Source: Streptomyces deccanensis
GTDB lineage: Bacteria > Actinomycetota > Actinomycetes > Streptomycetales > Streptomycetaceae
Assembly (NCBI RefSeq): GCF_022385335.1
Contig: NZ_CP092431.1
Coordinates: 9,486,001 to 9,550,000, forward strand
Direction: 5' to 3'
DNA length: 64,000 bases
The notes beneath the pieces are model-generated. The model did not search any database. It was not told the DNA's origin and saw only the letters and a program-made list of their open reading frames with translations. Position numbers and translations under genes: made by a program. Below are positions 999 through 14,573 of the stretch, one piece after another. Each line of letters begins with the position of its first letter. The stretch's first letter is position 1.

Positions 999-2498
999 TC
1001 ACCCCGCCTCGGCGCGGGGCCCGCGGGTGACGAGTCGCCTCAGCAGCGGCCACGCCAGCAGCACCGCGATGATCACGTACACCGTCACCGAGAACGGCGT
1101 GTTCACCAGGCCGGTGACGCTGCCGTCGCTGATCTGAAGGGCCCGGCGCAACTGCTGCTCGGCGTTCGGGCCGAGGATCACGCCGATGACGGCGGGGAGC
1201 ACCGGCAGGCCGTAGCGGCGCATGCCGAAGCCGATCAGGCCGATGACCAGCAGGATCACCAGGTCGATCACCTCGCCGCCGACCGCGTACGCGCCGACCG
1301 CCGCGAAGAACAGGATCCCCGCGTAGAGATACGGGCGCGGGATCCGCAGCAGCTTCGCCCACAGCGGGGCCAGCGGCAGGTTGAGGGCGAGCAGCAGCAC
1401 CATGCCGACGAAGAGCGAGGCGATCAGGCCCCACACGAGGTCCGGCTCGCGTTCGAAGAGCAGCGGGCCGGGCTGGATGCCGTACTGCTGGAACGCCGCC
1501 AGCATCACCGCCGCGACCGCCGTGGTCGGCAGGCCCAGGGTCAGCATGGAGACGAGCGTGCCCGCCGCCGAGGCCGACGCCGCCGACTCCGGGCCCGCGA
1601 CGCCCTCGATGGCGCCCTTGCCCCACTCGGCCTTGTGCTTCGACAGCCGCTTCTCGGTGACGTACGACAGGAACGTGGGGATCTCCGCGCCGCCCGCCGG
1701 GATCGCGCCGAACGGGAAGCCGATGAACGGGCCCCGCAGCCAGGACCTCCAGGTCCGCTTCACATCGGAGCGGCCGAGCCACGGCCGGCCCACCGGGATC
1801 GGTTCGGGCGGGCTGCGCCGCAGGTGGGCGGCGACCCACAGCGCCTCGCCGATGGCGAACAGACCCACCGCGACGATCACCACATCCACACCGTCGGCGA
1901 GTTGCAGGGAACCGAAGGTCAGCCGCTGCTGGCCGGTCATCTGATCCAGGCCCACCAGACCGATCGTCAGGCCGATGAGGAGGGACGCCAGGCCCCGGAT
2001 GCGCGAGGAGCCGAGAACCGACGTCACGGCGATGAACGCCAGCACCATGATCGCGAAGTAGTCCGGGGCGCCGATGTCCACGGCCAGCTCGGCGACCTTC
2101 GGCGCCAGTGCCACCAGCAGGATGGTGCCGACCATGCCGCCCGCGAAGTGCCCGATGGCGGCCGCCGCCAGCGCCTGCGCGCCCCGCCCGGACTTGGCCA
2201 TGGGGTTGCCCTCCATGGCCGCGACCACGGCCGCGCTCTCCCCGGGGGTGTTGAGGAGGATCGAGGTCGTCGAGCCGCCGAACATCGCCCCGTAGTAGAT
2301 GCCCGCGAACATGATGAACGCGCCGACCGGGTTCAGCCCGTACGTCACCGGCAGCAGCAGCGCCACCGCCATCGCGGGCCCGATCCCGGGCAGCACCCCG
2401 ATCGCCGTGCCCAGCAGGACACCGATCGCGGCCCACAGCAGGTTGATCGGCGTCAGCGCCGTACCGAAGCCGTCGAGGAGGGAGCTGAAGGCGTCCAT
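999..2498 (-). CDS. tctA: Tripartite tricarboxylate transporter, large membrane subunit TctA
   Basis: TctA is the large permease of tripartite tricarboxylate transporters, which import citrate or related di- and tricarboxylates together with a small membrane subunit and an extracytoplasmic binding protein. The product is 499 residues, the usual TctA length, and hydrophobic throughout with about 11-12 membrane segments. It carries the glycine-rich N-terminal block [25 protein letters not shown] (about residues 30-50) and the family block [13 protein letters not shown], with a related GLPTTAVA block in the second half. It is the last gene of a tctC-tctB-tctA operon; only one base separates its ATG from the tctB stop, so translation is probably coupled. 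Confidence 0.93.
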
Positions 2499-2499
2499 G

Positions 2500-3045
2500 T
2501 CAGAGCACTCCCATCAGCGGACCGCCGGGCAGCGGCACCCCGAGCAGGTTGTTGAACACCGCGTACGTGACCAGGGAGATGACGGCCGCGATCAGCGGGT
2601 CACGGTCCAGGTGCCGGCTGCCGAGGGCGTAGGCCGCGCCCCAGAACAGCAGGGCGCCGGATATGGGGAAGCCGAGCGGTTCGATCAGGACGGCCGCGCC
2701 GAGGAACACCCCGGCCAGCAGCAGGACCGTGCGCCAGTCGGCGGGCTCGGACAGGTCGATGTCCTCGCCGCCCTCCGCCTCGCCCCGGCCGCCGCGCAGC
2801 ACGTCCACCGCGAGCAGGGCGGCGATCAGCAGCAGACCGCCGCCGACCACGATCGGCACGGTCCTCGGGCCGACCGGACCGCGCTGCGCGATGTCGACGT
2901 CCATGGTGAGCGCGTCGGTCAGCACCAGGACGCCGAGCGCCAGCAGCAGGACGCAGACGCCGAGCTCGGAGTGGTCGCGCAGCCAGGAGCGGCGCTCCTC
3001 GGCGGGTGTAGGGGGAGTGCCGGTGGTGTCCGTCTCCGTCGTCAC
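2500..3045 (-). CDS. tctB: Tripartite tricarboxylate transporter, small membrane subunit TctB
   Basis: TctB is the small four-helix membrane subunit of the tricarboxylate transporter. The 181-residue product has four hydrophobic segments: [45 protein letters not shown], and a C-terminal pair ending in the small residues of [13 protein letters not shown]. The GTG start at 3045 overlaps the TGA of tctC (GTGA) and has AAGGAG eight bases upstream. A longer frame to 3165 exists but would lie inside tctC and is not needed. The N-terminus is a short Thr-rich cytoplasmic tail. Sequence conservation in TctB is low, so the call relies on topology and position between tctC and tctA. Confidence 0.9.
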
Positions 3046-4025
3046 AGTCCCAGCTCCTTCAGCACCGACACCACGCGCTTGTCCTGGGCGTCCAGAAATT
3101 CGCCGAACTTCTCGCCGGTGAGGAAGGCGTCGTCCCAGCCGTTCTGCTTCATCGACTGCCGCCACTCCGGAGAGTCGTGCAGTTCCTCGATCAGCCGGGT
3201 GAGCTTGTCGCGCTCGGCCTCGGTGAGGCCGGGCGGGGCGACGATGCCGCGCCAGTTGGTGAAGTTCACGTCGTAGCCGGCCTCCTGGAGGGTCGGCGCG
3301 TCCAGCCCGGCGACCCGCTTCGGGCCGGTCACCGCGAGCAGCCGCAGCTCGCCCGCCTTGATCTGGTCCAGGTACTCGCCGACCCCGGACACCCCGAAGG
3401 CGACCTTGTCGCCCAGGATCGACGCGAGCAGCTCACCGCCGCCGTCGAACGGGATGTAGTTGACGTCCTTCGGCGCGATCCCGGCGGCCTGCGCCATCAG
3501 CATCGGCGCCAGATGGTCGGGCCCGCCCGGCGCCGAACCCCCGCCCACCGGCAGCTTGCCCGGGTCCTCCTTCCAGGCCCCGACCAGCTCGTCGATCGTC
3601 TTGTACGGGGAGTCCTTGGCGACCACCACGACGTCCTGCTCCTCGGTGAGACGGGCGATCGGTGTGGTGTCGGCGAGTGTCTTCGGCGCGTCGTTGGAGC
3701 GGACGGCGCCGACGACACCGAGCCCCATCGACATCGCGAGCCTGCCGTTGCCGTGCTCGCTCACCAGCCGGCTCAGACCGACCGTGCCACCGGCACCGGG
3801 CAGGTTGAACACCTCGATGTTGTGGGTGAGCCCGGCGTCCTCGGCGTTCTTCGCGGCCGTCCGCGCGGTGATGTCGTAACCGCCGCCGGGTGTGTTCGGC
3901 ACCATGAAACGCAGGCCGGGGATCTGCGTGCCGCTCTCGGTGCCGCCGCCGGTGGACAGCAGGGGCGGTCCCACGAGCACGAGCACGGCCGCCCCGAGCA
4001 GGGCGAACGGGGTGCGCAGCTGCAC
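3042..4025 (-). CDS. tctC: Tripartite tricarboxylate transporter substrate-binding protein TctC
   Basis: TctC is the extracytoplasmic receptor of the transporter and delivers the carboxylate to TctAB. The product from the GTG at 4025 is 327 residues, matching the family; upstream in-frame codons back to 4274 look non-coding. GGTGG lies about eight bases before this GTG. Residues 1-25 form a signal peptide or N-terminal anchor (VQLRTPFALLGAAVLVLVG). The mature protein has the family hallmark MVPNTPGGGYDITART, a central PIARLTEEQDVVVVAKDSP strand and GGGSAPGGPDHL. There is no lipobox cysteine, unusual for a Gram-positive binding protein, so it may stay anchored by its uncleaved signal. It is the first gene of the operon. 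Confidence 0.92.
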   Translation of the reverse strand: MQLRTPFALLGAAVLVLVGPPLLSTGGGTESGTQIPGLRFMVPNTPGGGYDITARTAAKNAEDAGLTHNIEVFNLPGAGGTVGLSRLVSEHGNGRLAMSMGLGVVGAVRSNDAPKTLADTTPIARLTEEQDVVVVAKDSPYKTIDELVGAWKEDPGKLPVGGGSAPGGPDHLAPMLMAQAAGIAPKDVNYIPFDGGGELLASILGDKVAFGVSGVGEYLDQIKAGELRLLAVTGPKRVAGLDAPTLQEAGYDVNFTNWRGIVAPPGLTEAERDKLTRLIEELHDSPEWRQSMKQNGWDDAFLTGEKFGEFLDAQDKRVVSVLKELGL

Positions 4026-4213
4026 GAATGCCACCACCTGTCGGTCGGGTCGAGGGGGGAAGGGTGACCTGGGCCACATCGTGCCCGCGCGGGACGGTCC
4101 TGACGCCCTTGCGGAAGCAACGGAGGTTGTGGTCGTAGTGGTCACGGCCCCTGTCACCTTATGGGCACGTCCCCCACACCTCCCTTTCCCGGATCGCACG
4201 CGGGCGCCATGAT

Positions 4214-4231
4214 TGTGCGACCCACCGCACA
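4214..4231. promoter_or_regulatory. Inverted repeat between tctC and the CitA-like kinase, possible operator
   Basis: TGTGCG-ACCCAC-CGCACA has perfect six-base arms around a six-base spacer. It sits in the 332-base divergent gap (4026-4357) between the tctCBA operon and the two-component genes, about 190 bases before tctC and 130 before the kinase. By analogy with citAB/dcuSR systems this is a plausible binding site for the response regulator encoded at 6031, but that is inference. Nothing else in the gap looks like a gene. Confidence 0.35.
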
Positions 4232-4357
4232 GGGCGGCGCCCGAGCCGCGGACCGCCCGGCGTGGTGCCGGCACCGAGAAGTGGGACGCCCGACGCGGCG
4301 TCCGGTACAGACAGGAGCGGCGCCCGGGACGGCGTCGGCACGAGAGAAGAGTCCGTC

Positions 4358-6034
4358 GTGGTGTTCCGTCGCCATACCCTCGCAGGCGAGATGCTGGTCC
4401 TCCAGCTCGCCATCGTCGTGGTGGTGCTGCTGGCGGTCGCGGCGGTCTCGCTCACGCAGTCGGCGGCGACCTTCAACCGCGTCGAGGGCCGCCGGGTCAC
4501 CGCGCTCGCCGAGCAGCTCGCCGCCAACCCGCTGGTCCGGGACCGTCTCGCGCGGCCCGTCGCGCACGAGGCGCTGGCCCCCCTGGTGAACTCCACCCAG
4601 ACCCAGTCCGGGGTCACCTCGGTCACCGTCGCCGACGCCGACGGCCGGATCGTCAGCTCCACCGACCCCACGGCGATCGGCGACCCGATGCCGGTGGGCG
4701 AGGGCGCCGTCGCGGGCCGGGGCTGGTCCGGCTCACTGACCCTGGACGGCAGCCGCGAGCTCGTGGCCCAGGTCCCCGTGCTCGGCGCGACCACCAACGA
4801 CAACCTCGGCCTGCTGCTGGGCACGGTCATGATCGGCGAGGCCTCCCCGACCGTGTGGCAACGCCTCAGCGGCGCCTCCTCCTACCTCCTCGCCTACCTC
4901 GGCATCGCCAGCGGCCTCGGCCTCGTCGGCTCCTGGCTGCTCGCCCGCCGCGTCAAACGGCAGACCCTCGGCCTGGAGCCCCAGGAGATCGCCGGCCTCG
5001 CCGAACACCGCGAGGCCATGCTCTACGGCATCGCCGAGGGCGTGATCGCCCTCGACCCCCACCACCGGCTCACCCTCGTCAACGAGATGGGCCGGCGCCT
5101 GCTGGACCTGCCCGAGGACTGCGTCGGCAAGAGCCTCACCGACCTCGGCGTCGAGGGACGGCTGCGGGACGTCCTGGCCGGGGCCCAGGCGGAGACGCCC
5201 CACCAGCGCGACGAGGTCGTCATCCGCCGGGGCCGGGTCCTGGTGATGAACCGCATGACCGTCACCAAGGACGGCCGCCACCTCGGCTCCGTCACCACCC
5301 TCCGGGACCGCACCGAACTGGCCCGCCTCGAACGAGAGATCGGCTCCTTCCGCAGCTCCTCCGAGCTGCTGCGCGCCCAGGCCCACGAGTTCGCCAACCA
5401 GCTCCACACCATCTCCGGCCTCATCCAGATCGGCGAGCAGGACGAGGTCGTCCACTACATCCGGGCGCTGAGCCGCCACCGCCACTCCCTCGACGTCACC
5501 CTCAGCCGCCGCGTCCGCGACACCGCCGTCGCCGCCCTGCTCACGGCGAAGACCTCGCTGGCCGCCGAACGCCGGGTCACCCTGCGGATCTCCGACGCCA
5601 CCAACCTCGACCGGCTCGCCCCCGAGGACGCCGCCGACGTGGCGACCGTCGTCGGCAACCTCGTCGACAACGCCGTGGACGCGGCCGCCACCACGACCGC
5701 GCCCGAGGACCCCGACCGCTGGGCCGGCGCCGACGCCCGCGAGGCCTGGGTCGAGGTGGAACTGCGGCAGGACGCCTCCAGCGTGGAGATCGTCGTCCGC
5801 GACTCGGGCCCCGGTGTGGCCCCCGAACTCGCCCGTGAGGTCTTCTCCCACGGTTTCACCACCAAGGCCGCCCGGGAAGGCGAACGCGGCATCGGCCTGG
5901 CCCTCACCCGCCTGGTCTGCGAACGCCACGGCGGTGAGATCTCGGTGACCAACACCCCCGACGGGGCCATGTTCACCGCCCGCATGACCGTCAGCCACCT
6001 CGCCGACGCGGTGGCGGAAGGAGCGACACCATGA
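4358..6034 (+). CDS. CitA/DcuS-type sensor histidine kinase
   Basis: This membrane sensor kinase of the citrate/C4-dicarboxylate class probably senses the carboxylate taken up by the adjacent transporter. From the GTG at 4358 (GAGAAGAG a few bases before) it has 558 residues: a membrane helix at about 12-34, an extracytoplasmic sensor at 35-170 containing the VADADGRIVSSTDP and IGDPMP signatures of CitA sensors, a second helix at about 178-198, a cytoplasmic PAS domain (YGIAEGVIALDPHHRLTLVN), the phosphorylation box AHEFANQLHTISGLIQIG with His near residue 343, and an ATPase domain with NLVDNAVDAA, DSGPGV and GIGLAL. Its stop overlaps the next ATG (ATGA), so kinase and regulator are translationally coupled. 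Confidence 0.92.
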   Translation: MVFRRHTLAGEMLVLQLAIVVVVLLAVAAVSLTQSAATFNRVEGRRVTALAEQLAANPLVRDRLARPVAHEALAPLVNSTQTQSGVTSVTVADADGRIVSSTDPTAIGDPMPVGEGAVAGRGWSGSLTLDGSRELVAQVPVLGATTNDNLGLLLGTVMIGEASPTVWQRLSGASSYLLAYLGIASGLGLVGSWLLARRVKRQTLGLEPQEIAGLAEHREAMLYGIAEGVIALDPHHRLTLVNEMGRRLLDLPEDCVGKSLTDLGVEGRLRDVLAGAQAETPHQRDEVVIRRGRVLVMNRMTVTKDGRHLGSVTTLRDRTELARLEREIGSFRSSSELLRAQAHEFANQLHTISGLIQIGEQDEVVHYIRALSRHRHSLDVTLSRRVRDTAVAALLTAKTSLAAERRVTLRISDATNLDRLAPEDAADVATVVGNLVDNAVDAAATTTAPEDPDRWAGADAREAWVEVELRQDASSVEIVVRDSGPGVAPELAREVFSHGFTTKAAREGERGIGLALTRLVCERHGGEISVTNTPDGAMFTARMTVSHLADAVAEGATP

Positions 6035-6774
6035 CCGGCACGAGCAGCCCGCCCGGCACGAGCGGCGGGCCGTCCGCCCCGAGCAGCCCGCCCGGCACCA
6101 TCGACGTGCTCGTGGTCGACGACGACTTCATGGTGGCCCGGGTCCACCGCACCTTCGTCGAACGCGTCGAGCCGTTCCACGTGGTCGGCGTCGCCAGCAC
6201 CGGCGAGCAGGCCGTCGCCGCCGTCGACGAACTCCGTCCCGACCTCGTCCTCCTCGACCTCTACCTCCCCGACGGCTTCGGGCTCGACGTCATACCCCGG
6301 CTGCGCACCGCCGGACACGACTGCGACGTCATGGTCATCAGCGCCGCCCGGGAGGCCGACAGCGTGCGCGGCGCGGTCCGCCACGGCGTCGTCGACTACC
6401 TCCTCAAGCCCTTCGAGTTCGAGGAGCTGCGCTCCCGGCTCCAGCGGTACGCCGCCCAGCGCGGCCGACTGCTCACCACCGTCGTCCGCGGCCAGGCCGA
6501 CATCGACCGGGTGCTCGCCGGAGCCTCCGCCCCGGCGTCGACGGCCGGCGCCCTGCCCAAGGGCATGAGCGTGGAGACCGCCGAACTGATCGAGGCCACC
6601 CTGCGCGCCGCCGACGGCACCCTCTCCGCCACCGAGTGCGCCACCCTCACCGGCATCTCCCGGGTCTCCGCCCGCCGCTACCTGGAGTACTTCCACAGCT
6701 CCGGCAGCGCGGACGTCTCCCTGCGCTACGGCGTGGCCGGGCGCCCGGAGCGACGGTACAGCTGGCGGGTGTGA
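6031..6774 (+). CDS. CitB/DcuR-family response regulator
   Basis: This is the partner regulator of the kinase upstream, 247 residues. After a Gly/Ser/Pro-rich N-terminal tail of about 24 residues comes the receiver domain: VLVVDDDFMVARVHR carries the acidic pocket, DLVLLDLYLPDGFG the phospho-acceptor Asp near residue 76, and YLLKPFEFEELRSRLQ the conserved Lys. The C-terminal part (about 185-235) has the helix-turn-helix of the CitB class (LSATECATLTGISRVSARRYLEY). It starts inside the kinase stop codon. Known relatives activate dicarboxylate or citrate transport genes, so tctCBA, divergent 4 kb away, is the likely target. It converges with the thioesterase gene across a 50-base gap. Confidence 0.93.
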   Translation: MTGTSSPPGTSGGPSAPSSPPGTIDVLVVDDDFMVARVHRTFVERVEPFHVVGVASTGEQAVAAVDELRPDLVLLDLYLPDGFGLDVIPRLRTAGHDCDVMVISAAREADSVRGAVRHGVVDYLLKPFEFEELRSRLQRYAAQRGRLLTTVVRGQADIDRVLAGASAPASTAGALPKGMSVETAELIEATLRAADGTLSATECATLTGISRVSARRYLEYFHSSGSADVSLRYGVAGRPERRYSWRV

Positions 6775-6824: not shown

Positions 6825-7577
6825 CTACAGCCCCAGGTGCCGGCGTACGACGTCGACGACCTCCTGCGGCCGGTCGTTGAGGTAGAAGTGGCCGCCGGGG
6901 AACACACACAGCTCGGTCGGTCCGTCGGTGTGGCCGCTCCAGGCCCGCGCCTCCGCCACCGGCGTCACGGGGTCGGCGTCGCCGGTGAGGACGGTGACCG
7001 GACAGGCCAGCCGGTCGTCGGGGCGCGGCTCGTACGTCTCCAGCGCCTTGTAGTCGCCGCGCAGCGCCGGCAGCACGAGCTGCACCAGCTCCTCGTCGTC
7101 GAAGACCCGCCCGTCGGTGCCGCCCAACCGGCGCACCGCCCGCAGCAGTTCGGCATCGCTGCCGAGGTGCAGCCGAGGGCCGGTCCGGGCCGTGGAGGGA
7201 GCGCGGCGCCCCGAGACGAACAGCCGCACCGGGGGCCGCCCGGCCGCCTCCAGTGCCAGCGCCGCCTCGTAGGCGACCAGTGCGCCCATGCTGTGCCCGA
7301 AGAGGGCGAGCGGCCGTTGGTCGTCGTCGCCGGTGACGGCCCCGACGATCCGCTCGGCCAGTTCCCGCACGCTCTCCGACGGCGGCTCGGCGAAACGGTC
7401 CTGGCGCCCCGGGTACTGCGCGGCCAGCACATCGGCCGCCGGGGCGAGCGCCAGCGCCATCGGGTGGTAGGCGCTCGCCGAACCACCCGCGTGCGGCAGA
7501 CACAGCAGCCGCACGGCAGCCTCCGGCGCGGGCCGGTAACGCCGTACCCACGGACCGCTGTTGACCGCTGAGGTCAT
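6825..7577 (-). CDS. Type II thioesterase (GrsT-like alpha/beta hydrolase)
   Basis: This 250-residue enzyme belongs to the type II thioesterases, which release stalled or wrong acyl groups from carrier proteins of peptide and polyketide synthases. The nucleophile motif GHSMG has Ser at residue 96, and the C-terminal PGGHFYL supplies the catalytic His at residue 230. The N-terminal LLCLPHAGGSASAYHP is typical of the family. Its ATG overlaps the stop of the STM4011-type gene (ATGA), so it is the last cistron of that operon. No synthetase or carrier protein is in the window, so its substrate is unknown and may be a product of the radical SAM system. Confidence 0.88.
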   Translation of the reverse strand: MTSAVNSGPWVRRYRPAPEAAVRLLCLPHAGGSASAYHPMALALAPAADVLAAQYPGRQDRFAEPPSESVRELAERIVGAVTGDDDQRPLALFGHSMGALVAYEAALALEAAGRPPVRLFVSGRRAPSTARTGPRLHLGSDAELLRAVRRLGGTDGRVFDDEELVQLVLPALRGDYKALETYEPRPDDRLACPVTVLTGDADPVTPVAEARAWSGHTDGPTELCVFPGGHFYLNDRPQEVVDVVRRHLGL

Positions 7578-8476
7578 GGACTCACTCGCCTTTCGGTTCC
7601 TCTTTCGGTTCCTCGACGCGCCGCCGGCGTCGGCACGCGTTCCAGGACGCCGCCCGCGAAGACGTCGTACAGGGGCAGCGTTTCGAGGTGAACGTAGCCG
7701 ATGTGGCAGTCGCAGACGGACAACGGGCAGGGGCGGGGGGCGAGCGCCGTGCGGAACGATCCGTCGTACAGGTTGCCCAGTTCCGTCTTGACGAAGTGGC
7801 AGCGCCGTACCGTGCCCTCCCCGTCCACGGACACGACCGTGGAGCCGGTACGGCAGGCACGGCCCGCCGAGCGGTGCGGGTGGCGACTGAAGGGGAAGAG
7901 GGGGTCCAACTCGGTCCAGAGCGCGGCCTCCTCGTCGGTGTAGGTGTGTCCCTCGGCGGCGTTCACCCAGAGGTACACCTGCTCCGGCAGCTCCCGGCGC
8001 AGTCGTCGGGCGTGCTCCAGATGCTCGGGCAGGCCGACGATCCCCACGCTGAAGCGGATCCCGTCCGCGGCGAGTCGGAGCGCCTTGCCGAGGAACCTCT
8101 CGTACGGCGTCTGCCCCGGGTGGTAGGTGCACCACAGGGCCACCGTGTCCGGGTCCGCCTCGGACAGCCACTCCGTGCGGCAGCTCAGGTTCGTCTGGAT
8201 CGCCACCCGGTCGATGTGCGGCTCGTGGGAGAGCTCGATCAGGGCCTTGCGGTACCAGGAGCGCACCAGCCCCTCGCCCCACGGCGTGAACAGCACCGAG
8301 AGCCGGTCGCCGGTCCGGTCCCGGGCCCAGGCGGTGAAACGGTCCAGGGCCGCGCGGTCGGCGCGTAGCTGTTCCGTGGAGTCGCGGCGCTTGGCGAACG
8401 GGCAGTAGGGGCAGTCGTAGTCGCAGGAGGCGAGCGGGCCCCGGTAGAGGATCGTCAGGTCCACGGGCGCCGTCAC
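7574..8476 (-). CDS. STM4011-family radical SAM protein
   Basis: This predicted radical S-adenosylmethionine enzyme has 300 residues. The cluster-binding motif CxxxCxxC is CDYDCPYC at residues 18-25, followed by PFAKRRDS. Later blocks such as TPWGEGLVRSWYRKAL, AIQTNLSC and LWCTYHPGQTP match the family named after Salmonella STM4011. A Cys-rich C-terminal region (RPCPLSVCDCHIGYVHLE) could bind a further cluster. The GTG start at 8476 overlaps the stop of the upstream radical SAM gene (GTGA), and its own stop overlaps the thioesterase start. The C-terminus ends in a short repeat (RGTERGTERR) from a duplicated TTTCGGTTCCT sequence. The substrate is unknown. Confidence 0.88.
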   Translation of the reverse strand: MTAPVDLTILYRGPLASCDYDCPYCPFAKRRDSTEQLRADRAALDRFTAWARDRTGDRLSVLFTPWGEGLVRSWYRKALIELSHEPHIDRVAIQTNLSCRTEWLSEADPDTVALWCTYHPGQTPYERFLGKALRLAADGIRFSVGIVGLPEHLEHARRLRRELPEQVYLWVNAAEGHTYTDEEAALWTELDPLFPFSRHPHRSAGRACRTGSTVVSVDGEGTVRRCHFVKTELGNLYDGSFRTALAPRPCPLSVCDCHIGYVHLETLPLYDVFAGGVLERVPTPAARRGTERGTERRVSP

Positions 8477-9813
8477 TTCAGCTCGTACGCGGCCATCGCC
8501 GCGCGGACGGCGGGGGAGAAGAACTCGGGGCCGATGGCGTCCGAGTGAGCCAGCCCCTCGGCGGACAGCTTCAGCAGGTCGGAACCCGTGTCCGCCAGCC
8601 AGCCGCGCGCGGCCAGCAGGTCCAGCTCCACGGGGAAGTCCGCGTACGGGTCCGATCCGAACCGCCGCCGGTAGTCCGCCACCGGCAGCCCCCGCGCCTG
8701 GAGCAGCGACTGCAGCAGATGGCGGCGGCGCGCCTCGTCCTCGTCGACCACCCGGCCGTGCACGGCCCGGGAGAAGTCCTCGGTGGTGGTGTAGTCGTCG
8801 ATGATCGTGCGGATCTGGCTCATGTTCACCGCGTAGTCGAAGGAGTAGTGCACCGTCGACGTGTACGAACGGGCGCCGCAACCCAGGCCGATCATGCCGT
8901 CTGTCTGGCAGGCGTGATCGTCCGGGCCCTGCGGCGGGGCGTCCGCGCGGCGGAACATCCGCATGGACACCTGCTCGTAGCCGTGCGCGAGGAGGTGGTC
9001 GCGGCCCTCCCGGTAGCGCCGCAGCCGGGCCTCGTCCCACTCGCGGTCCGCGAGCGCCGGGTCGGCGTTCCGGCCGAGGCCCGTGAGCGGCCGGACGTAC
9101 AGCGGATAGAGGTAGATCTCTTCCGGCCGCCAGGCGAGGGCCGCGTCCAGCGACACCCGCCAACTGGCCGCCGTCTGCCCGTCGATGCCGTAGATCAGGT
9201 CGATGTTCAGGACGGGCACGCCGGCGTCCCGGATCCGTGCCAGCGCCGCCTCCACGTCGGACCGCCGCTGCGGTCGTACGGCCGCACGCGCCTCCTCCGG
9301 CACGAAGCTCTGCACACCGAGGCTCAGCCGCGTGGCGCCCCGCTCGGCCAGCACGGACAGCCGGTCGGCGGTCGCCGTGGCCGGGGAGGCCTCGACCGAC
9401 AGCGGGATCGCCCGCAGGTCGGCCCCCATGTGCCGCTCGGCGATGTCGCACAGCCGCTCCAGCTCCGCGGCCTCCAGATAGGTCGGGGTGCCACCGCCGA
9501 ACGCGGCGTTCGCGAACCGCACCGGCTCCGCGTCCCCGAGCGCCTCCCGCACCGCGATCGCCTGCCGTTCGAGGGCGTCGAGATAGCGGCCGGTCAGCCC
9601 GTCGGGCGCGCCGATCCGCGTGAAGAGGTTGCAGAAGCCGCACCGCACCTCGCAGAACGGTATGTGCGCGTACAGCGACAGCGCCTGCCGTGACTCCCCG
9701 GCCCACAGCTCGGCCAGCGACGGGCCGCCGGGCAGCCTCCGGTACGCCGTCTTGTGCGGGTAGGCGTACACGTAGTGCTGGTAGGGGCGGACCAGCGGCG
9801 CGGTCACGGTCAT
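8473..9813 (-). CDS. STM4012-family radical SAM protein (HemN/HemW-like)
   Basis: This second radical SAM protein has 446 residues and resembles coproporphyrinogen oxidase/HemW enzymes. The motif AHIPFCEVRCGFCNLF places the iron-sulfur cysteines at residues 54, 58 and 61. GGGTPTYLE, SVEASPATAT and RLSLGVQSFVPEE follow in the order seen in HemN-like proteins, and a C-terminal HemN-type domain is present (GLGCGARSYTST). The ATG at 9813 lies within the stop of the preceding hydrolase gene (GCATGA). The HemN-like name does not imply heme synthesis: the gene always-together arrangement here points to the STM4011-4015 system. Its substrate is unknown. Confidence 0.9.
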   Translation of the reverse strand: MTVTAPLVRPYQHYVYAYPHKTAYRRLPGGPSLAELWAGESRQALSLYAHIPFCEVRCGFCNLFTRIGAPDGLTGRYLDALERQAIAVREALGDAEPVRFANAAFGGGTPTYLEAAELERLCDIAERHMGADLRAIPLSVEASPATATADRLSVLAERGATRLSLGVQSFVPEEARAAVRPQRRSDVEAALARIRDAGVPVLNIDLIYGIDGQTAASWRVSLDAALAWRPEEIYLYPLYVRPLTGLGRNADPALADREWDEARLRRYREGRDHLLAHGYEQVSMRMFRRADAPPQGPDDHACQTDGMIGLGCGARSYTSTVHYSFDYAVNMSQIRTIIDDYTTTEDFSRAVHGRVVDEDEARRRHLLQSLLQARGLPVADYRRRFGSDPYADFPVELDLLAARGWLADTGSDLLKLSAEGLAHSDAIGPEFFSPAVRAAMAAYELK

Positions 9814-10679
9814 GCGGACGGCTCCAGGAAGAAGTGGCTGTAGGGGACGGTCCACACGGCCTCGTGGCCGAGGCGGTGCCCGGTGTAACCGTCCTCGCCG
9901 TAGGTGGTCCCGTGGTCGGAGCAGACGACGGCGAAGCAGCGGCGGCGTGAACTCATCGCGGCGAAGAGCCGGCCGACGTGCCGGTCGACGTACTCCAGGG
10001 CCGCCGCGTGCGTGGCCAGGCTGTCGCCCGCCTCACGGGTGGCGCCCGGCAGGTGGAACCAGTTGGGCTGGTGCAGCGCCGAGACGTTGAGGAAGAGGAA
10101 CAGCCGCCGGTCGGCGGGCAGTTCGGCCACGACCTGCTCGGCGCGGGCCACCTGGGACTCGAACGACGTCGGTGACGCGACGGAGAACTCCGGCTCCCAG
10201 TGGCTCTCCTGGAACAGGCCCGGCAGGACACTGCCGAGCGCGCCCTGCTTGTTGAAGAAGCCGACACCGCCGACACAGACCGTGCGGTAGCCGTGCGCGG
10301 CGAGCGCCGAGACCAGGTCCGGGGTGTCGAAGACGAAGGTGCGGCCCTCGGTGGTCTCGCTGCCGGCGAACCGGCCCGCGAAGAGCCGGGGATGCGGTCC
10401 CGGCGCCGCCGGGGTGGGCAGGAACCCGGCGAACATCGCATGGTGCGACGCGTAGGTGAAACTGCCGGGCGCGTGCCGCTTCTCCCAGGTGCCGCCCGGC
10501 AGCCGGGCGGCCAGGTTCGGCAGCCGGCCCTCCCGCACGAGCCGCTCCGCCACGTCGTGGCGCAGGGTGTCGAGGGTGAGCAGCAGCAGGTCGTCGCGGC
10601 CCACCACCTCGTTCATGTCGGGCGGTGGGGCGGTCGGGGAGGGCCGCTGGGCCGTGCCGGCCCGGTCAGAAGCGTGCAT
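9810..10679 (-). CDS. STM4013/SEN3800-family hydrolase (alkaline phosphatase/sulfatase fold)
   Basis: This 289-residue metal-dependent hydrolase is a member of the sulfatase/phosphoethanolamine-transferase fold. The metal ligands are expected in LLLLTLDTLRHDVAERL near the start and in VVCSDHGTTYGEDGYTGHR near the end; HAPGSFTYASHHAMFAGFLP lies in the usual place of the nucleophile loop. It has no signal peptide or membrane helix, so it acts in the cytoplasm, unlike most relatives. The ATG at 10679 has AAGGAA about six bases before it and overlaps the end of the ATP-grasp-like gene by 14 bases. A later ATG (MNEVVG, codon 22) is possible but lacks a clear ribosome site. Confidence 0.85.
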   Translation of the reverse strand: MHASDRAGTAQRPSPTAPPPDMNEVVGRDDLLLLTLDTLRHDVAERLVREGRLPNLAARLPGGTWEKRHAPGSFTYASHHAMFAGFLPTPAAPGPHPRLFAGRFAGSETTEGRTFVFDTPDLVSALAAHGYRTVCVGGVGFFNKQGALGSVLPGLFQESHWEPEFSVASPTSFESQVARAEQVVAELPADRRLFLFLNVSALHQPNWFHLPGATREAGDSLATHAAALEYVDRHVGRLFAAMSSRRRCFAVVCSDHGTTYGEDGYTGHRLGHEAVWTVPYSHFFLEPSA

Positions 10680-11841
10680 GGTCGTTCCTTGCCTGGGGGT
10701 GGTGCGTGGGCGTCGGGAGCATCGCGCGCCGTACCGCCGCGAGTTGTGCCGCGTAGGTGTCGAGGCCTTCCGCCGGGCCGCCCGGCAGGCCGGTCAGCCG
10801 GGGCAGCAGATCGCCGAACGCGTTGACCTCGCCCACCGTGAACCGGCGCCAGCCGATCGCCGGGAGCAGGTCCACCCCGACGGACAGCGTGTCCGGGAAG
10901 CAGGCGGCGGCCCGCTCGCAGATGTCCAGCGCCTGCCGCCAGCGGTCGCCCGCCGCGTCCACGACGGAGGTCAGATCGCCCCGTGCCCCGCCGAGATGGA
11001 GGTTGGTCATCGGGAAGCGGCTGGTGCGGACGACGGCGTGCGTGGCCCGCCCCGCCACGACCAGGACCCGTAGATCGGCGGACCGGCCCTGCGCGGACGC
11101 CTTCGGCAGCCAGCGCTCGATGTGCAGTCCGTCGGCCGCGAGGGCGTCGACGATGCCGGCGATCTGCCGCTCGTCCGAGTAGCGCCGCACCCGCAGCGAG
11201 TTGTGCAGCCGGGGCGGGGTGTACGGACCGCCGTCGGCGGCCACCTCCACCGAGGTGGTGGCCCGGAGCCGTCCGCTCGCCGACGACTCGACGGCCAGCA
11301 CACCGGACGCGGAGGAGCCGTGGGCCGGTTTCACGAAGACCCGCGGCATGCCGTGGTCCCGCATCACCGCCCGTACGTCGTCCCAGCCGCGCACCGCGAG
11401 TGTGTCGCCCGAGGTGGGCGACGGCGGCACCGGGACCCCGGCCGCGTCGAGCCGGGCGTGGCACAGTCGCTTGTCGAACAGCACCGCCAGGTCCGCGGGA
11501 CCGTCCAGCCGCACCCCGCCCCGCAGGGAGCCCACGGCGGCCAGGAAGCGGTCGTACCAGGTGGCCGAGCCCTCCACCCGCGTCGGGTCGTCGACGCCTC
11601 GCAGCAGCCGGTCCACCTCGGCGTTCTCACCCGGCGAGTCCAGCCGGACGATCTCGTCGTCGGCGAACTCGTGGCCGCCGTCGCGCAGCACGTCCCGCCA
11701 CTCGACGATCCGTGGCGTCCCGACACCGGCCGCCTCGGCCGCCGCGACGAACAACCCGACGCGACGGTTCTCCCCGTTCCCGACGACCACCCACCTGTAC
11801 GGGCCCGGCCCCGCGCCCGTCGCACCGGTCCAACCGGCCAC
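10666..11841 (-). CDS. STM4014-family protein, ATP-grasp-like
   Basis: This 391-residue protein resembles ATP-grasp ligases. The N-terminus has a nucleotide-fold start (YRWVVVGNGENRRVGLFVAAAE). The middle contains LFDKRLCHARLDAAGVPVPPS and MPRVFVKPAHGSSASGVLAV, the lysine and glycine-rich loop pattern of ATP-grasp enzymes. The C-terminus has SVGVDLLPAIGWRRFTVGEVNAFGDLLP, matching the metal-binding E..N end of that fold. The start is a GTG with AAGGGGGG just upstream. Forty-one bases separate it from the upstream LRR gene, the only real gap in the operon. In RiPP-like pathways such enzymes join or modify peptide carboxylates; whether this one does is inference. Confidence 0.83.
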   Translation of the reverse strand: MAGWTGATGAGPGPYRWVVVGNGENRRVGLFVAAAEAAGVGTPRIVEWRDVLRDGGHEFADDEIVRLDSPGENAEVDRLLRGVDDPTRVEGSATWYDRFLAAVGSLRGGVRLDGPADLAVLFDKRLCHARLDAAGVPVPPSPTSGDTLAVRGWDDVRAVMRDHGMPRVFVKPAHGSSASGVLAVESSASGRLRATTSVEVAADGGPYTPPRLHNSLRVRRYSDERQIAGIVDALAADGLHIERWLPKASAQGRSADLRVLVVAGRATHAVVRTSRFPMTNLHLGGARGDLTSVVDAAGDRWRQALDICERAAACFPDTLSVGVDLLPAIGWRRFTVGEVNAFGDLLPRLTGLPGGPAEGLDTYAAQLAAVRRAMLPTPTHHPQARNDHARF

Positions 11842-11882
11842 ACCGCCCCCCTTCGTCCAAGAACCCCCGCACTCCTACGTGT

Positions 11883-12851
11883 TCACTCGCCCACCGCGAC
11901 GAACCGCCACACCGTGCCGTCCTCCTCCTCGTCCGACTCGGCGTCGTCGGGGTCGACGTCGACCTGGACGCCCTCGGCCTCCAGGGAGTCGCGCAGGCGG
12001 TCGCGTACGGCCGCGCTCAGGTAGTTGTGGTGCAGGTCCAGGGTCTTGAGGTGGGTGAGCGGCTGACCGGTGAGGAGGGCGGTCGCGCCGTCGTCGGTGA
12101 GGACGCCCATCGACACGTCCAGCACGTCGAGGCGGGCCACCACCGGGGCGGCGGCCAGGGCCGCGCAGATGTCGTCCTGCATCTCGCTGTTGCGCAGCGC
12201 CAGATGCTTGAGGGCCGGGAGCCGGGTGCCCGCGAGGATCGGCGCCAGGTCGGCCACCTCGCTGTCGCCGCCGTACTCGGAGGTGCCCAGCCACAGGTCC
12301 AGCTCGACGAGGGCCGGCAGATCGCTGCCCGCGACACCCCGGACCGCCTCCACCGGCATGCCGCCTGTCTCCACCGTCAGCGACCGCAGCCGTTCGTGCC
12401 GCAGCGCCGGGAAGACGAGCCCCTGGCCGCCGCGCACCCCGAACTCCTCCAGCTCCGGGAAGGCGTTCAGCAGCGGGCCCACATCCCCCTGGTTGATCCA
12501 GGAGATCTCGCACTCCTCCATCACGATGTCGCCGAGGAACAGCGCGCGCAGCGACGGCAGCCGGTCCTTCGCCGCGACCAGGGCCTCGATGATCTCCTCG
12601 GGCCCGTTGTCGTAGGCGTCGCTCCAGGCGCCCACCACCAGCGCCCGCACCTTCTCGGTGTCCACCGACGCCAGGAAGCGGGCGAACGCCTCCTCCCAGG
12701 CCTCCTCGCTGTCGTACGAGCCCACGCTGATGCTCCAGGCCACCGACTCGGGCGCGGGCAGGTGGGCGGCGCCCCGCGGGTCCTTCACCGACGTGGGGAA
12801 GCGGTGGACCGGCAGGTCGTGGAACTCCTCCAGATGGCTCCCGATGGTCAT
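11883..12851 (-). CDS. STM4015-family leucine-rich-repeat protein
   Basis: This first gene of the operon encodes 322 residues from the ATG at 12851 (GAAGGGG nine bases before). Much of it consists of irregular leucine-rich repeats: LPSLRALFLGD, FPELEEFGVRG, LPALVELDLWLG, LPALKHLALRNS, VARLDVLDVSMG and LTHLKTLDLHHN. The N-terminal part has a conserved WSISVGSYDSEEAWEEAFARF block. The extreme C-terminus is very acidic (DVDPDDAESDEEEDGTV) followed by WRFVAVGE. No catalytic motif is visible; LRR proteins bind other proteins or peptides, so it may present a substrate or scaffold the enzymes. A longer frame to 12974 lacks ribosome-site support. Confidence 0.86.
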   Translation of the reverse strand: MTIGSHLEEFHDLPVHRFPTSVKDPRGAAHLPAPESVAWSISVGSYDSEEAWEEAFARFLASVDTEKVRALVVGAWSDAYDNGPEEIIEALVAAKDRLPSLRALFLGDIVMEECEISWINQGDVGPLLNAFPELEEFGVRGGQGLVFPALRHERLRSLTVETGGMPVEAVRGVAGSDLPALVELDLWLGTSEYGGDSEVADLAPILAGTRLPALKHLALRNSEMQDDICAALAAAPVVARLDVLDVSMGVLTDDGATALLTGQPLTHLKTLDLHHNYLSAAVRDRLRDSLEAEGVQVDVDPDDAESDEEEDGTVWRFVAVGE

Positions 12852-13108
12852 GCGCGCCCGCCCCTTCGCTCCAAGTCCATGGACGGATGCCGGGTCCCTG
12901 CCCGGTCCGCCCGCTGCGCACCCGGAGCACACAGCGGCGCCGGGTAGGGGAGTTCTACCAAGCCGCACTGACACCGTGTGCGGCGGACCCCTGTCCTGTG
13001 GACGAACACCCGCGCTCGCCCCGGCGAACGGCCGTGCGGGACCGATTGTCAGTGGCTGCCCCTACGGTCGTCTCGTGGCACCAGGAGTGCCCGACGGGAG
13101 GGAGACCC

Positions 13109-13435
13109 ATGTACCGGCAAGGAGACGTCCTCATCGCGCCGTTGGCGGAGAGCGCCGTGCCCCGGGGCGCGCTCGACGCCGCGTCGGAGCCGCGCGACGG
13201 GCGTGGCCGGCTCGTCCTCGCCCTCGGCGAGGTCACCGGTCACGCGCACGCCGTGGTCGGCCCCGGCCGCCTGATCCGCGAGGCGAGCGTGTTCGGTCCG
13301 ATGCTGCTGCACGTGCCGGAGGGCGCCCGCGTCGTCCACGAGGAGCACGCCGCGATCAGCCTCCCCAAGGGCTGGTACCGCGTCATACGCCAGCGCGAGT
13401 ACGTGCCGGGTTCGGTGCGGATCGTCGCCGACTGA
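13109..13435 (+). CDS. Small conserved hypothetical protein
   Basis: This encodes 108 residues beginning MYRQGDVLIAPLAES, with GGGAGGGAG four bases before the ATG. It is soluble and beta-rich, with a central GEVTGHAHAVVGPG segment and a C-terminal LPKGWYRVIRQREYVPGSVRIVAD. The His-containing GHAHAV motif could bind a metal, but no enzyme family is recognised. It is divergent from the STM4015 gene across 257 bases and probably co-transcribed with the gene at 13548, 112 bases downstream. Proteins beginning MYRQGDVL are, as far as I recall, found as small accessory proteins next to DUF6745 genes, consistent with its neighbour. Confidence 0.78.
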   Translation: MYRQGDVLIAPLAESAVPRGALDAASEPRDGRGRLVLALGEVTGHAHAVVGPGRLIREASVFGPMLLHVPEGARVVHEEHAAISLPKGWYRVIRQREYVPGSVRIVAD

Positions 13436-13547: not shown

Positions 13548-14573
13548 GTGACGGAACAGGCGAGTTGGCGGGCGGTGGCGGCGGCCACCGGGGCGGGCGA
13601 CCGGGCGCGGACCGAGGCGGGCGTGCGGCTCGCGTACCGGCGGGCGGGGCTGGCGGAGCCCGAGCGGATCGTGTGGGCCCGCTCGCCCCTGGCGGCGGTC
13701 CGACTGCTCTCGGGAGCGGCCCCGGAGGACGGCGAGGCGCTTCCCCCGACCGGCGCGAGCGTGCGTGACGCCGTCCGCAACAGACCGGTCGCCTCCGCGC
13801 GCGCCGCGCTGCACACCCGACTGGGCCCCACCGGCTGGGGCGACCACTGGCGGGCGACCGGCGCCGACCTCTGGGAGACCACCCGGCCTCTCGTCGACCG
13901 CGTCCGCACCGGCATCGTCGAGACGATGGCCCCCACCGGCCGCAAGGAGGAGACCGGCATCCGGCTGCTCCTCCTGGACGCGGTCCTCGGCCAGAACGAC
14001 GCGGCCTGGCTCGCCGCCCTCGACGCGGCCCCCGAGCTGGACGGTCTGGCGGAGGTGGCGCGCACGGCCGGCTGGTGGTGGCCGTACGAGCATGTCGCGA
14101 TCGTCGCCGAACGGCCGGTGGAACTGCACCGCGATGAGGCGGGCCGGCTGGACCGCGGCGACGGACCCGCGCTCGCCTTCTCCGACGGCTTCGCCCTGCA
14201 CGCCTGGCGCGGGCTGCCCGTCCCCGGTGAGTTCCTCGATCGGCTGGGCACCCTGACCCCGCAGCTGATCAGGGCCGAGGAGAACGCGGAACTGCGCCGC
14301 GTGATGCTCGAGTTCTACGGCTACGACCGCTACCTGGAGGAGTCCGGCGCACAGCCGGTGCACCGCGACGAGACGGGCGTGCTGTGGCGCATAGCCCTGC
14401 CCGGCGACGAGGACGTGGTGATGGTGGAGGTCGTCAACTCCACACCGGAGCCGGACGGCACGAGCCGCACCTACTGGCTGCGGGTGCCGCCCACCACGAC
14501 CACGGCCCGGGAGGGAGTGGCCTGGACGTTCGGCCTGAGCGCCGAGGCGTACGAGCCGCTGCGACAGACCTGA
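13548..14573 (+). CDS. DUF6745-like protein
   Basis: This 341-residue soluble protein has no known function. The GTG start has AGGAGG six bases before it. Recognisable blocks are DAAPELDGLAEVARTAGWWWPYEHVAIVAERP in the middle and MLEFYGYDRYLEESGAQ followed by RDETGVLWRI and VVMVEVVNSTPEPDG, the pattern of proteins annotated DUF6745. The last third ends in a basic-aromatic TYWLRVPPTTTTAREGVAWTFG segment. No membrane segment or signal peptide is present. Together with the small gene upstream it forms a two-gene unit facing away from the STM4011-4015 operon, which suggests a shared theme, but no functional link can be read from sequence. Confidence 0.75.
   Translation: MTEQASWRAVAAATGAGDRARTEAGVRLAYRRAGLAEPERIVWARSPLAAVRLLSGAAPEDGEALPPTGASVRDAVRNRPVASARAALHTRLGPTGWGDHWRATGADLWETTRPLVDRVRTGIVETMAPTGRKEETGIRLLLLDAVLGQNDAAWLAALDAAPELDGLAEVARTAGWWWPYEHVAIVAERPVELHRDEAGRLDRGDGPALAFSDGFALHAWRGLPVPGEFLDRLGTLTPQLIRAEENAELRRVMLEFYGYDRYLEESGAQPVHRDETGVLWRIALPGDEDVVMVEVVNSTPEPDGTSRTYWLRVPPTTTTAREGVAWTFGLSAEAYEPLRQT

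Follow-up and report, generated by a model that had tools for sequence, protein, structure and literature searches.

The window analysed here, a 64,000-nucleotide stretch of Streptomyces deccanensis DNA in which all gene coordinates are counted, carries a cassette of five gene families, STM4015 to STM4011, encoding in order a leucine-rich repeat (LRR) protein, an ATP-grasp enzyme, a hydrolase of the alkaline-phosphatase/sulfatase superfamily and two radical S-adenosylmethionine (SAM) enzymes (Table 1). A first-pass annotation of the sequence had described these five, together with a type II thioesterase, as six minus-strand genes at 6825-12851; all are present where it placed them and in the order claimed, and the five NCBIfam models are matched in that order, each far above its curated cut-off. 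The window sequence also bears out its account of the junctions, which all overlap (14 bases between STM4014 and STM4013, ATGA inside GCATGA between STM4013 and STM4012, GTGA between STM4012 and STM4011, and ATGA between STM4011 and the thioesterase gene) except that of STM4015 and STM4014, a gap of 41 bases. It missed a divergent pair on the plus strand, encoding a 108-amino-acid (aa) protein and a DUF6745 protein. Compared across genomes and loci (numbered G and L below), the real system is one of seven genes: the 108-aa protein, DUF6745, STM4015, STM4014, STM4013, STM4012 and STM4011.

Table 1. Positions of genes, tail codons and promoter elements in the window.
Feature	Position	Strand	Evidence or remark
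STM4015-family LRR protein, 322 aa; proposed carrier/substrate	11883..12851	-	NCBIfam NF038076, 402 bits (cut-off 275)
Codons of STM4015 tail RFVAVGE + stop	11883..11906	-	degenerate tail pattern, sole match in 10.1-Mb genome; reversed control 0
STM4014 ATP-grasp; proposed ligase on STM4015 terminal Glu	10666..11841	-	NF038074, 444 bits (cut-off 175)
STM4013 alkaline-phosphatase/sulfatase-superfamily hydrolase	9810..10679	-	NF038075, 424 bits (cut-off 250); PF00884, PF01663
STM4012 HemN-like radical SAM enzyme	8473..9813	-	NF006067, 641 bits (cut-off 380)
STM4011 radical SAM, C-terminal SPASM/twitch-like Cys set	7574..8476	-	NF038073, 418 bits (cut-off 200)
108-aa protein, divergent core neighbour	13109..13435	+	no Pfam/NCBIfam family; present in 117/161 loci
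DUF6745 protein, divergent core neighbour, start codon provisional	13548..14573	+	PF20530, 386 bits
RecA-NDp-type promoter toward 108-aa/DUF6745 genes	13046..13068 (genome 9499046-9499068)	+	TTGTCAGTGGC-N6-TACGGT
Promoter-like element toward STM4015-4011 operon	12951..12973	-	TGTCAGTGCGGCTTGGTAGAACT; conserved across loci
Type II thioesterase, neighbour outside conserved system	6825..7577	-	Pfam Thioesterase PF00975, 1.4e-52

Among 161 loci with at least 7 kb of upstream sequence, STM4012 is present in 160, STM4013 in 159, STM4014 in 157 and STM4015 in 156, while DUF6745 is found in 118, the 108-aa protein in 117 and both in 117. The locus sets share genomes that were fetched twice, so that 157 of these 161 loci, 153 of the 156 used below for STM4011 and 100 of the 103 used for promoters are distinct by exact sequence, and close relatives remain among them. 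A strong STM4011 match occurs in 190 of 392 Streptomyces genomes (about half of the sampled species) and a strong DUF6745 match (E < 1e-90) in 166; because 165 of these 166 also carry STM4011, the single exception having a weaker STM4011 match, the DUF6745 and 108-aa genes belong to the system. A profile scan of named genomes, taken at its best 80 matches, places the cassette in many other phyla as well (the Streptomyces loci are 80 of the listed matches, in score order), and its gene order is the same in named records of Methylobacterium, Deinococcus, Paenibacillus, Salmonella and E. coli. The DUF6745/108-aa pair lies upstream on the same strand in Methylobacterium and behind STM4011 on the other strand in three Deinococcus, and also occurs at loci of Chloroflexota, Phycisphaeraceae and Anaerolineae; no match to it was found at the loci examined from Salmonella, Bacteroides and Paenibacillus. 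Aligned sequences of the 108-aa protein share the pattern GHxH...HxEH...REYxP...D, and no fold match was found for its model (predicted local distance difference test score, pLDDT, 87.5). The STM4013-4011 part is matched, on the chromosome, in 154 of 5426 complete E. coli genomes, and the one genome read (L262) has the full cassette between ompL and typA. A separate small precursor-peptide gene, for which the first-pass annotation had proposed to look nearby, is not among the conserved neighbours compared, which were open reading frames (ORFs) of at least 90 aa. At one Gemmata locus (L135) the cluster is rearranged, with a WGR-LRR gene (tail ...FLMQGDYE) and STM4014 downstream of STM4011.

The first-pass annotation had listed the LRR protein as just another gene; its C-terminal tail is likely the substrate of the system. 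The window protein ends in DGTVWRFVAVGE, and ahead of the family tail, whose consensus is R-[YF]-x-x-V-x-Glu-COOH, lies a linker that is acidic and variable. Among 225 distinct STM4015 relatives (at least 150 bits, from many phyla), Glu is the final residue in 223, Arg occupies position -7 in 210, Tyr or Phe -6 in 214 and Val -3 in 202; this count, like those of 162 and 85 given below, was made after removal of identical or similar sequences. Both exceptions come from Herpetosiphon, where in two genomes (L138:765-1691, L145:797-1690) the leading copy of a tandem run of four STM4015 genes has lost the Glu. Five distinct matches below 150 bits were left out of the 225: three end in Glu (two at L134, one at L135), and two further, fragment-like ones (L140 and L202) do not. 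The tails range from WRYVALGE (Deinococcus), YRSIAVSE (Methylobacterium) and WRYPSLTE (Paenibacillus) to WYYPMITE (Bacteroides), YMNAMYTE (Salmonella) and YMNPMFTE (E. coli). In an alignment of 162 representatives, of which 160 have Glu as their raw last residue, the terminal Glu column is among the most conserved of the protein (entropy 0.05 bit), and the linker before the tail (columns 300-315) shows 1.7-3.3 bits plus gaps. Asp and Glu together make up 40% of positions -25 to -9, against 17% of STM4015 as a whole, and the C-termini of STM4014, STM4013 and STM4011 are variable (2.8-3.8 bits per residue).

At the DNA level, a 24-base tail pattern is present in 178 of 190 STM4011-positive Streptomyces genomes, against 9 of 202 STM4011-negative ones, and its reversed control in 15 of all 392. 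Fisher values for this association, and for that of DUF6745 with STM4011, disregard how closely the genomes are related and are not taken as probabilities. One of the nine, G338, carries STM4015 to STM4012 at the end of a contig; the stretches examined in three others (G039, G161 and G240) gave no STM4015 match. In 20 stretches around remote or otherwise unexplained tail matches, the ORFs that end in the tail match the STM4015 profile, with the exception of an odd, truncated-looking frame (L212). A remote STM4015 copy in G087 ends in RYVAAGE, outside the tail pattern and with the Glu kept. STM4015 is present once in 96 of the 161 loci, twice in 56 and in three to five copies in 4, and the second copy in Streptomyces sits between the first and STM4014 and has the same tail. 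Tandem arrays of five copies in Actinomadura rifamycini (L170:52-4744) and four in G156 (L220:3028-7197) suggest that one enzyme set may serve several scaffolds. Full-tail homologues also occur away from the cluster, 25 kb or more from STM4011 or on a different contig (L213-L219, L221 and L226, in genomes G334, G301, G356, G131, G364, G360, G053, G245 and G130), and an N-terminal WGR domain is found on STM4015-type LRR proteins of Bacteroides (L116:5513-6586) and Gemmata (L135:8854-10302).

The likely partner of this tail is STM4014. RimK acts on the C-terminal Glu of ribosomal protein S6. The predicted model of STM4014 (pLDDT 91.4) has ArgX-LysW and LysX as its best PDB matches, followed by RimK (complex 5zk6), with other ATP-grasps close behind and PsnB fourth in the Foldseek list, and these top matches put it in the fold group of the LysX/ArgX/RimK ATP-grasp ligases. 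The sequence itself gives a partial PDB profile match (5e-5), stays under the family cut-offs for rimK_fam (21.3 vs 143.4 bits) and LysX (18.3 vs 275.6 bits) and, in the Salmonella protein, weakly matches tubulin-tyrosine ligase (E 0.014). LysX and ArgX are described, in the excerpts of PMC10433800 used here, as ATP-grasp enzymes that couple an amino group to the Glu at the C-terminus of a carrier protein, whose tail is recognised by their GSWGR motif.

SPASM/twitch radical SAM enzymes, a class rich in peptide modifiers, are marked by CX3CX2C, a C-terminal CX(9-15)GX4C and further Cys. STM4011 has an invariant set of this kind in 10 of 10 sequences (C16/C20/C23 as CX3CX2C, C209-X12-G222-X4-C227, C251, C256 and C258 in Methylobacterium numbering), and its best PDB profile match, over the C-terminal part (2e-4), is SkfB, annotated as a peptide maturation radical SAM protein; on the C-terminal Cys set and the match over that part, STM4011 is classed by its sequence as a SPASM/twitch-type enzyme. 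STM4012 is HemN-like, with CX3CX2C at residues 54-61 and the Cys invariant in 26 sequences. STM4013 matches sulfatases as well as nucleotide pyrophosphatase/phosphodiesterases, and in all 25 aligned sequences has an invariant Thr75 in T-[YFW]-[AP]-[AS]-H, with no Arg, at what we take to be the position of the sulfatase formylglycine precursor. The active-site motif of formylglycine sulfatases is C/S-x-P-x-R; with Thr75 instead of Cys or Ser, STM4013 does not have this motif, and because of this invariant Thr phosphate chemistry appears likelier than sulfate chemistry. In Salmonella and E. coli a separate gene for a Cof-type HAD hydrolase comes next after STM4011, and in Bacteroides finegoldii (L116:7965-9530) the STM4011 frame runs on into HAD-like sequence, the motif being recognised by eye, at a locus where STM4013 and STM4012 were matched by fragments only.

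The region between the divergent genes holds a promoter-type signal in each direction. On the 108-aa side the site reads TTGTCAGTGGC-TGCCCC-TACGGT, with the start codon 40 bases on, and agrees at 16 of 17 positions with the published ultraviolet (UV)-inducible recA promoter of Streptomyces rimosus, TTGTCAGTGGC-N6-TAGggT (excerpt of PMC2375139), which places it among the RecA-NDp promoters. In the excerpts cited here, these LexA-independent promoters stand before many DNA-damage genes of Actinomycetales, an S. coelicolor gene behind one of them is UV-induced (PMC5087735, PMC9411070), and their mycobacterial activator is PafBC (PMC8223512, PMC6789036). Of the distinct intergenic regions between the divergent genes, 85 in all, 66 contain the 8-mer CACTGACA and 45 contain TGGTAGAA; the commonest 8-mer of one shuffle reaches 15. 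The pattern TTGTCAGTG-N8-TAnnnT has 29 matches in this genome, and the reversed pattern none. A survey of the other 28 sites, taking for each one coding-like ORF that starts at most 300 bases downstream, found a DNA-processing domain behind nine (RecA, UvrB, uracil-DNA glycosylase, methylguanine methyltransferase, DnaX, two DEAD helicases, HHH_RecD2 and Mrr) and no clear one behind 19; further ORFs behind sites encode ribosomal S6 and a WGR protein (L235). A position weight matrix built from 27 of the 29 sites (the window site and one identical chromosome-end copy excluded; threshold 12) detected sites toward the 108-aa gene in 84 of 103 loci, toward STM4015 in 65 and in both directions in 55; shuffles gave 0.2 per 103, and none of 1840 other strand-segments had a site. 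In the window itself, the STM4015-side element falls short of the threshold with a score of 11.3 and agrees with the published consensus at only 11 of 17 positions, a level that shuffles also reach, so that the case for it rests on conservation between loci. The promoter link is seen only in Streptomyces and close kin. The 28 other sites (L232-L258, L260) delineate a putative DNA-damage regulon, in which the unknowns DUF4132, DUF7691, SUKH-4 and DUF2797 stand beside repair genes, and at each end of the chromosome a site precedes a gene for a pPIWI_RE-associated REase (L232, L260; genome positions 3198 and 10098281).

The thioesterase was the novelty claimed by the first-pass annotation, which had it translationally coupled to the cassette and freeing an acyl group from the compound made by the STM4011-4015 system, and which proposed as a check how often it directly follows STM4011 in other genomes. 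Searched with a one-sequence profile (1e-5) at STM4011 loci with 3 kb or more of downstream sequence, it is downstream in 6 of 156 (the window, L032, L078, L092, L101 and L106) and was not found in the other 150, the very outcome that the annotation had said would refute it. The five loci other than the window belong to close relatives, whose STM4011 is 87-95% identical to that of the window; in one (G248, L032) the match is short, with 105 of 250 residues covered and a TGA in frame, and in another (L101) the gene lies 1.7 kb away. An equally close relative (G296, L102; STM4011 90%) keeps the five genes and has no thioesterase orthologue, its homologues elsewhere reaching at most 54% identity. 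Being confined to close relatives, and decayed, displaced or missing among them, the thioesterase is a lineage-specific neighbour, a local hitch-hiker. That it acts on the product of the system is very improbable on these counts, even with the coupling of the two genes in the window and with an orthologue (83-85% identity) beside or near STM4011 in four close relatives; nor was a polyketide or peptide synthetase domain found in the ten neighbouring window proteins scanned. Further homologues (26-56% identity) lie away from the cluster in 13 of 13 genomes searched. Genes for a TctA/TctC tripartite tricarboxylate transporter and for a sensor kinase with response regulator adjoin the thioesterase gene (window 999-6774), and PADLOC anti-phage models, run on 10 proteins, gave no strong match and two weak partial ones (best 27 bits).

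Starting from what was observed directly, namely the gene set, the tail, the fold match of STM4014 and the promoter match, we infer a set of reactions, a loaded compound and a mode of induction. STM4015 would be an LRR scaffold that holds out, on its acidic linker, a fixed C-terminal tail with Glu at the end; STM4014, as a LysX/ArgX/RimK-type ATP-grasp, would activate a carboxylate of this Glu and join an amino compound to it; the next step, a modification of the loaded group or of the tail, would fall to STM4011 (SPASM-type) and STM4012 (HemN-like); and STM4013 might remove or transfer a phosphoryl-type group or free the product, the weakest step of the scheme. In Streptomyces, DNA damage should switch the pathway on, because the divergent genes lie behind RecA-NDp-type promoters. 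The first-pass annotation had guessed from the pairing of radical SAM with ATP-grasp that a peptide-like substrate is modified, which would be right on this scheme; its thioesterase and acyl-release part was wrong. We regard the scheme as a whole, that is, loading of the tail Glu by STM4014, radical SAM work upon it, a DNA-damage promoter and a thioesterase standing outside, as evenly balanced between true and false. STM4012, DUF6745 and the 108-aa protein also have partly or well conserved C-terminal ends, so that such an end alone is no proof. Against the promoter link, an initial search found no conservation of the M. smegmatis PafBC motif in S. venezuelae (PMC9380542). Beyond Streptomyces and close kin, a search ahead of STM4015 at 19 loci gave no such promoter site (the upstream region of L170 being incomplete, and operons that start with the 108-aa gene being examined before STM4015 only), and a strict LexA box was not found in 18. 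A bolder version would make this a new class of carrier-protein pathway, in which a LysX-like ligase charges the Glu of a reusable LRR scaffold, two radical SAM enzymes work on it, and the resulting compound is called up by Streptomyces upon DNA damage, the parts of user, sensor or release factor falling to DUF6745 and the 108-aa protein; we consider this possible, if doubtful.

The evidence on the tail can be read in other ways. STM4014 might, like RimK or tubulin-tyrosine ligase, extend the STM4015 tail as a permanent mark, with the radical SAM enzymes maturing the protein and nothing released. RimK is among the top structural matches of STM4014, the Salmonella protein has its weak resemblance to tubulin-tyrosine ligase, no release peptidase is among the conserved neighbours and some genomes hold several STM4015 copies per enzyme set, all of which this reading accommodates; it is nonetheless rather unlikely, as it leaves unexplained both the phosphatase-type STM4013 and the HAD-like domain of Bacteroides (by eye) or Cof-type HAD gene of Salmonella and E. 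coli.

If instead the tail were matured in the manner of a ribosomally synthesized and post-translationally modified peptide, STM4014 would be a PsnB-type graspetide ligase forming an ester or amide within it and the radical SAM enzymes would introduce crosslinks, for example between Arg and Tyr. The PsnB match of STM4014, SkfB as the closest PDB relative of STM4011 and the well conserved Tyr/Phe and Arg of the tail speak for this, but a fixed acceptor is lacking (Ser or Thr stands at -2 in 63 of the 162 representatives, at -5 in 36 and anywhere in the last seven residues in 106) and the residues ahead of the Glu differ between phyla while the Glu is constant, which makes it quite unlikely. 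The same drift of neighbouring positions beside a nearly invariant free Glu, and a partner ligase of the kind that acts on terminal Glu, argue against the tail serving to dock the enzymes or a protease, as a tag for binding or degradation, while the true substrate lies elsewhere; short fixed C-terminal motifs behind flexible linkers do commonly bind, and LRR domains bind proteins, yet we hold a tag to be improbable.

Set beside known systems, the seven genes appear by their sequences to form a new variant among those that load or modify a protein C-terminus, with the chemistry as proposed above. RimK and S6 have in common with them the ATP-grasp fold and a C-terminal Glu as target, but here there is a dedicated LRR partner in the same operon, and there are radical SAM partners. 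Graspetides of the PsnB type differ in their conserved Ser/Thr/Lys core acceptors, which the STM4015 tail does not have. All five members of the NCBIfam STM4011-4015 families are present in the usual order, with two genes and a promoter class added here and the thioesterase excluded. The RecA-NDp promoters of Actinobacteria are matched by the 108-aa-side site, although no repair function is known for the genes behind it and the STM4015-side element is a variant. LysW with LysX/ArgX likewise pairs a carrier whose C-terminal Glu is functional and set in acidic surroundings with an ATP-grasp of the same fold (PMC10433800, excerpts), and the free C-terminal Glu of the LysW type is the trait seen in 223 of 225 STM4015 relatives. 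Unlike LysW, STM4015 is a 322-aa LRR protein ending in RFVAVGE rather than a small zinc-binding Cys protein with EDWGE, and two radical SAM enzymes and one of the alkaline-phosphatase superfamily stand in place of the later lysine/arginine enzymes of the LysW route. Pearlins, too, are built as small molecules on the C-terminus of a carrier with radical SAM tailoring (PMC9303977, excerpts), but the carrier here is a folded repeat protein and the ligase an ATP-grasp; general family scans of the system proteins, with no dedicated search for it, turned up no PEARL ligase family.

In the open-licence PubMed Central (PMC) literature searched, STM4011-STM4015 occur in two papers, as table entries, DUF6745 and the five SEN/STY gene names are not mentioned, and no paper combines leucine-rich repeat, radical SAM, ATP-grasp and operon, or radical SAM, ATP-grasp, carrier protein and C-terminal glutamate; as the search was limited to open-licence papers, this absence is no proof. 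The cassette families are widespread and carry no assigned function. A substrate end (the terminal Glu of STM4015), a likely ligase (STM4014) and, in Streptomyces, a likely inducer (DNA damage) make this anonymous cassette testable. If the proposal is true, the few covalent carrier proteins known would gain a repeat protein, and the actinobacterial DNA-damage response a radical SAM pathway.

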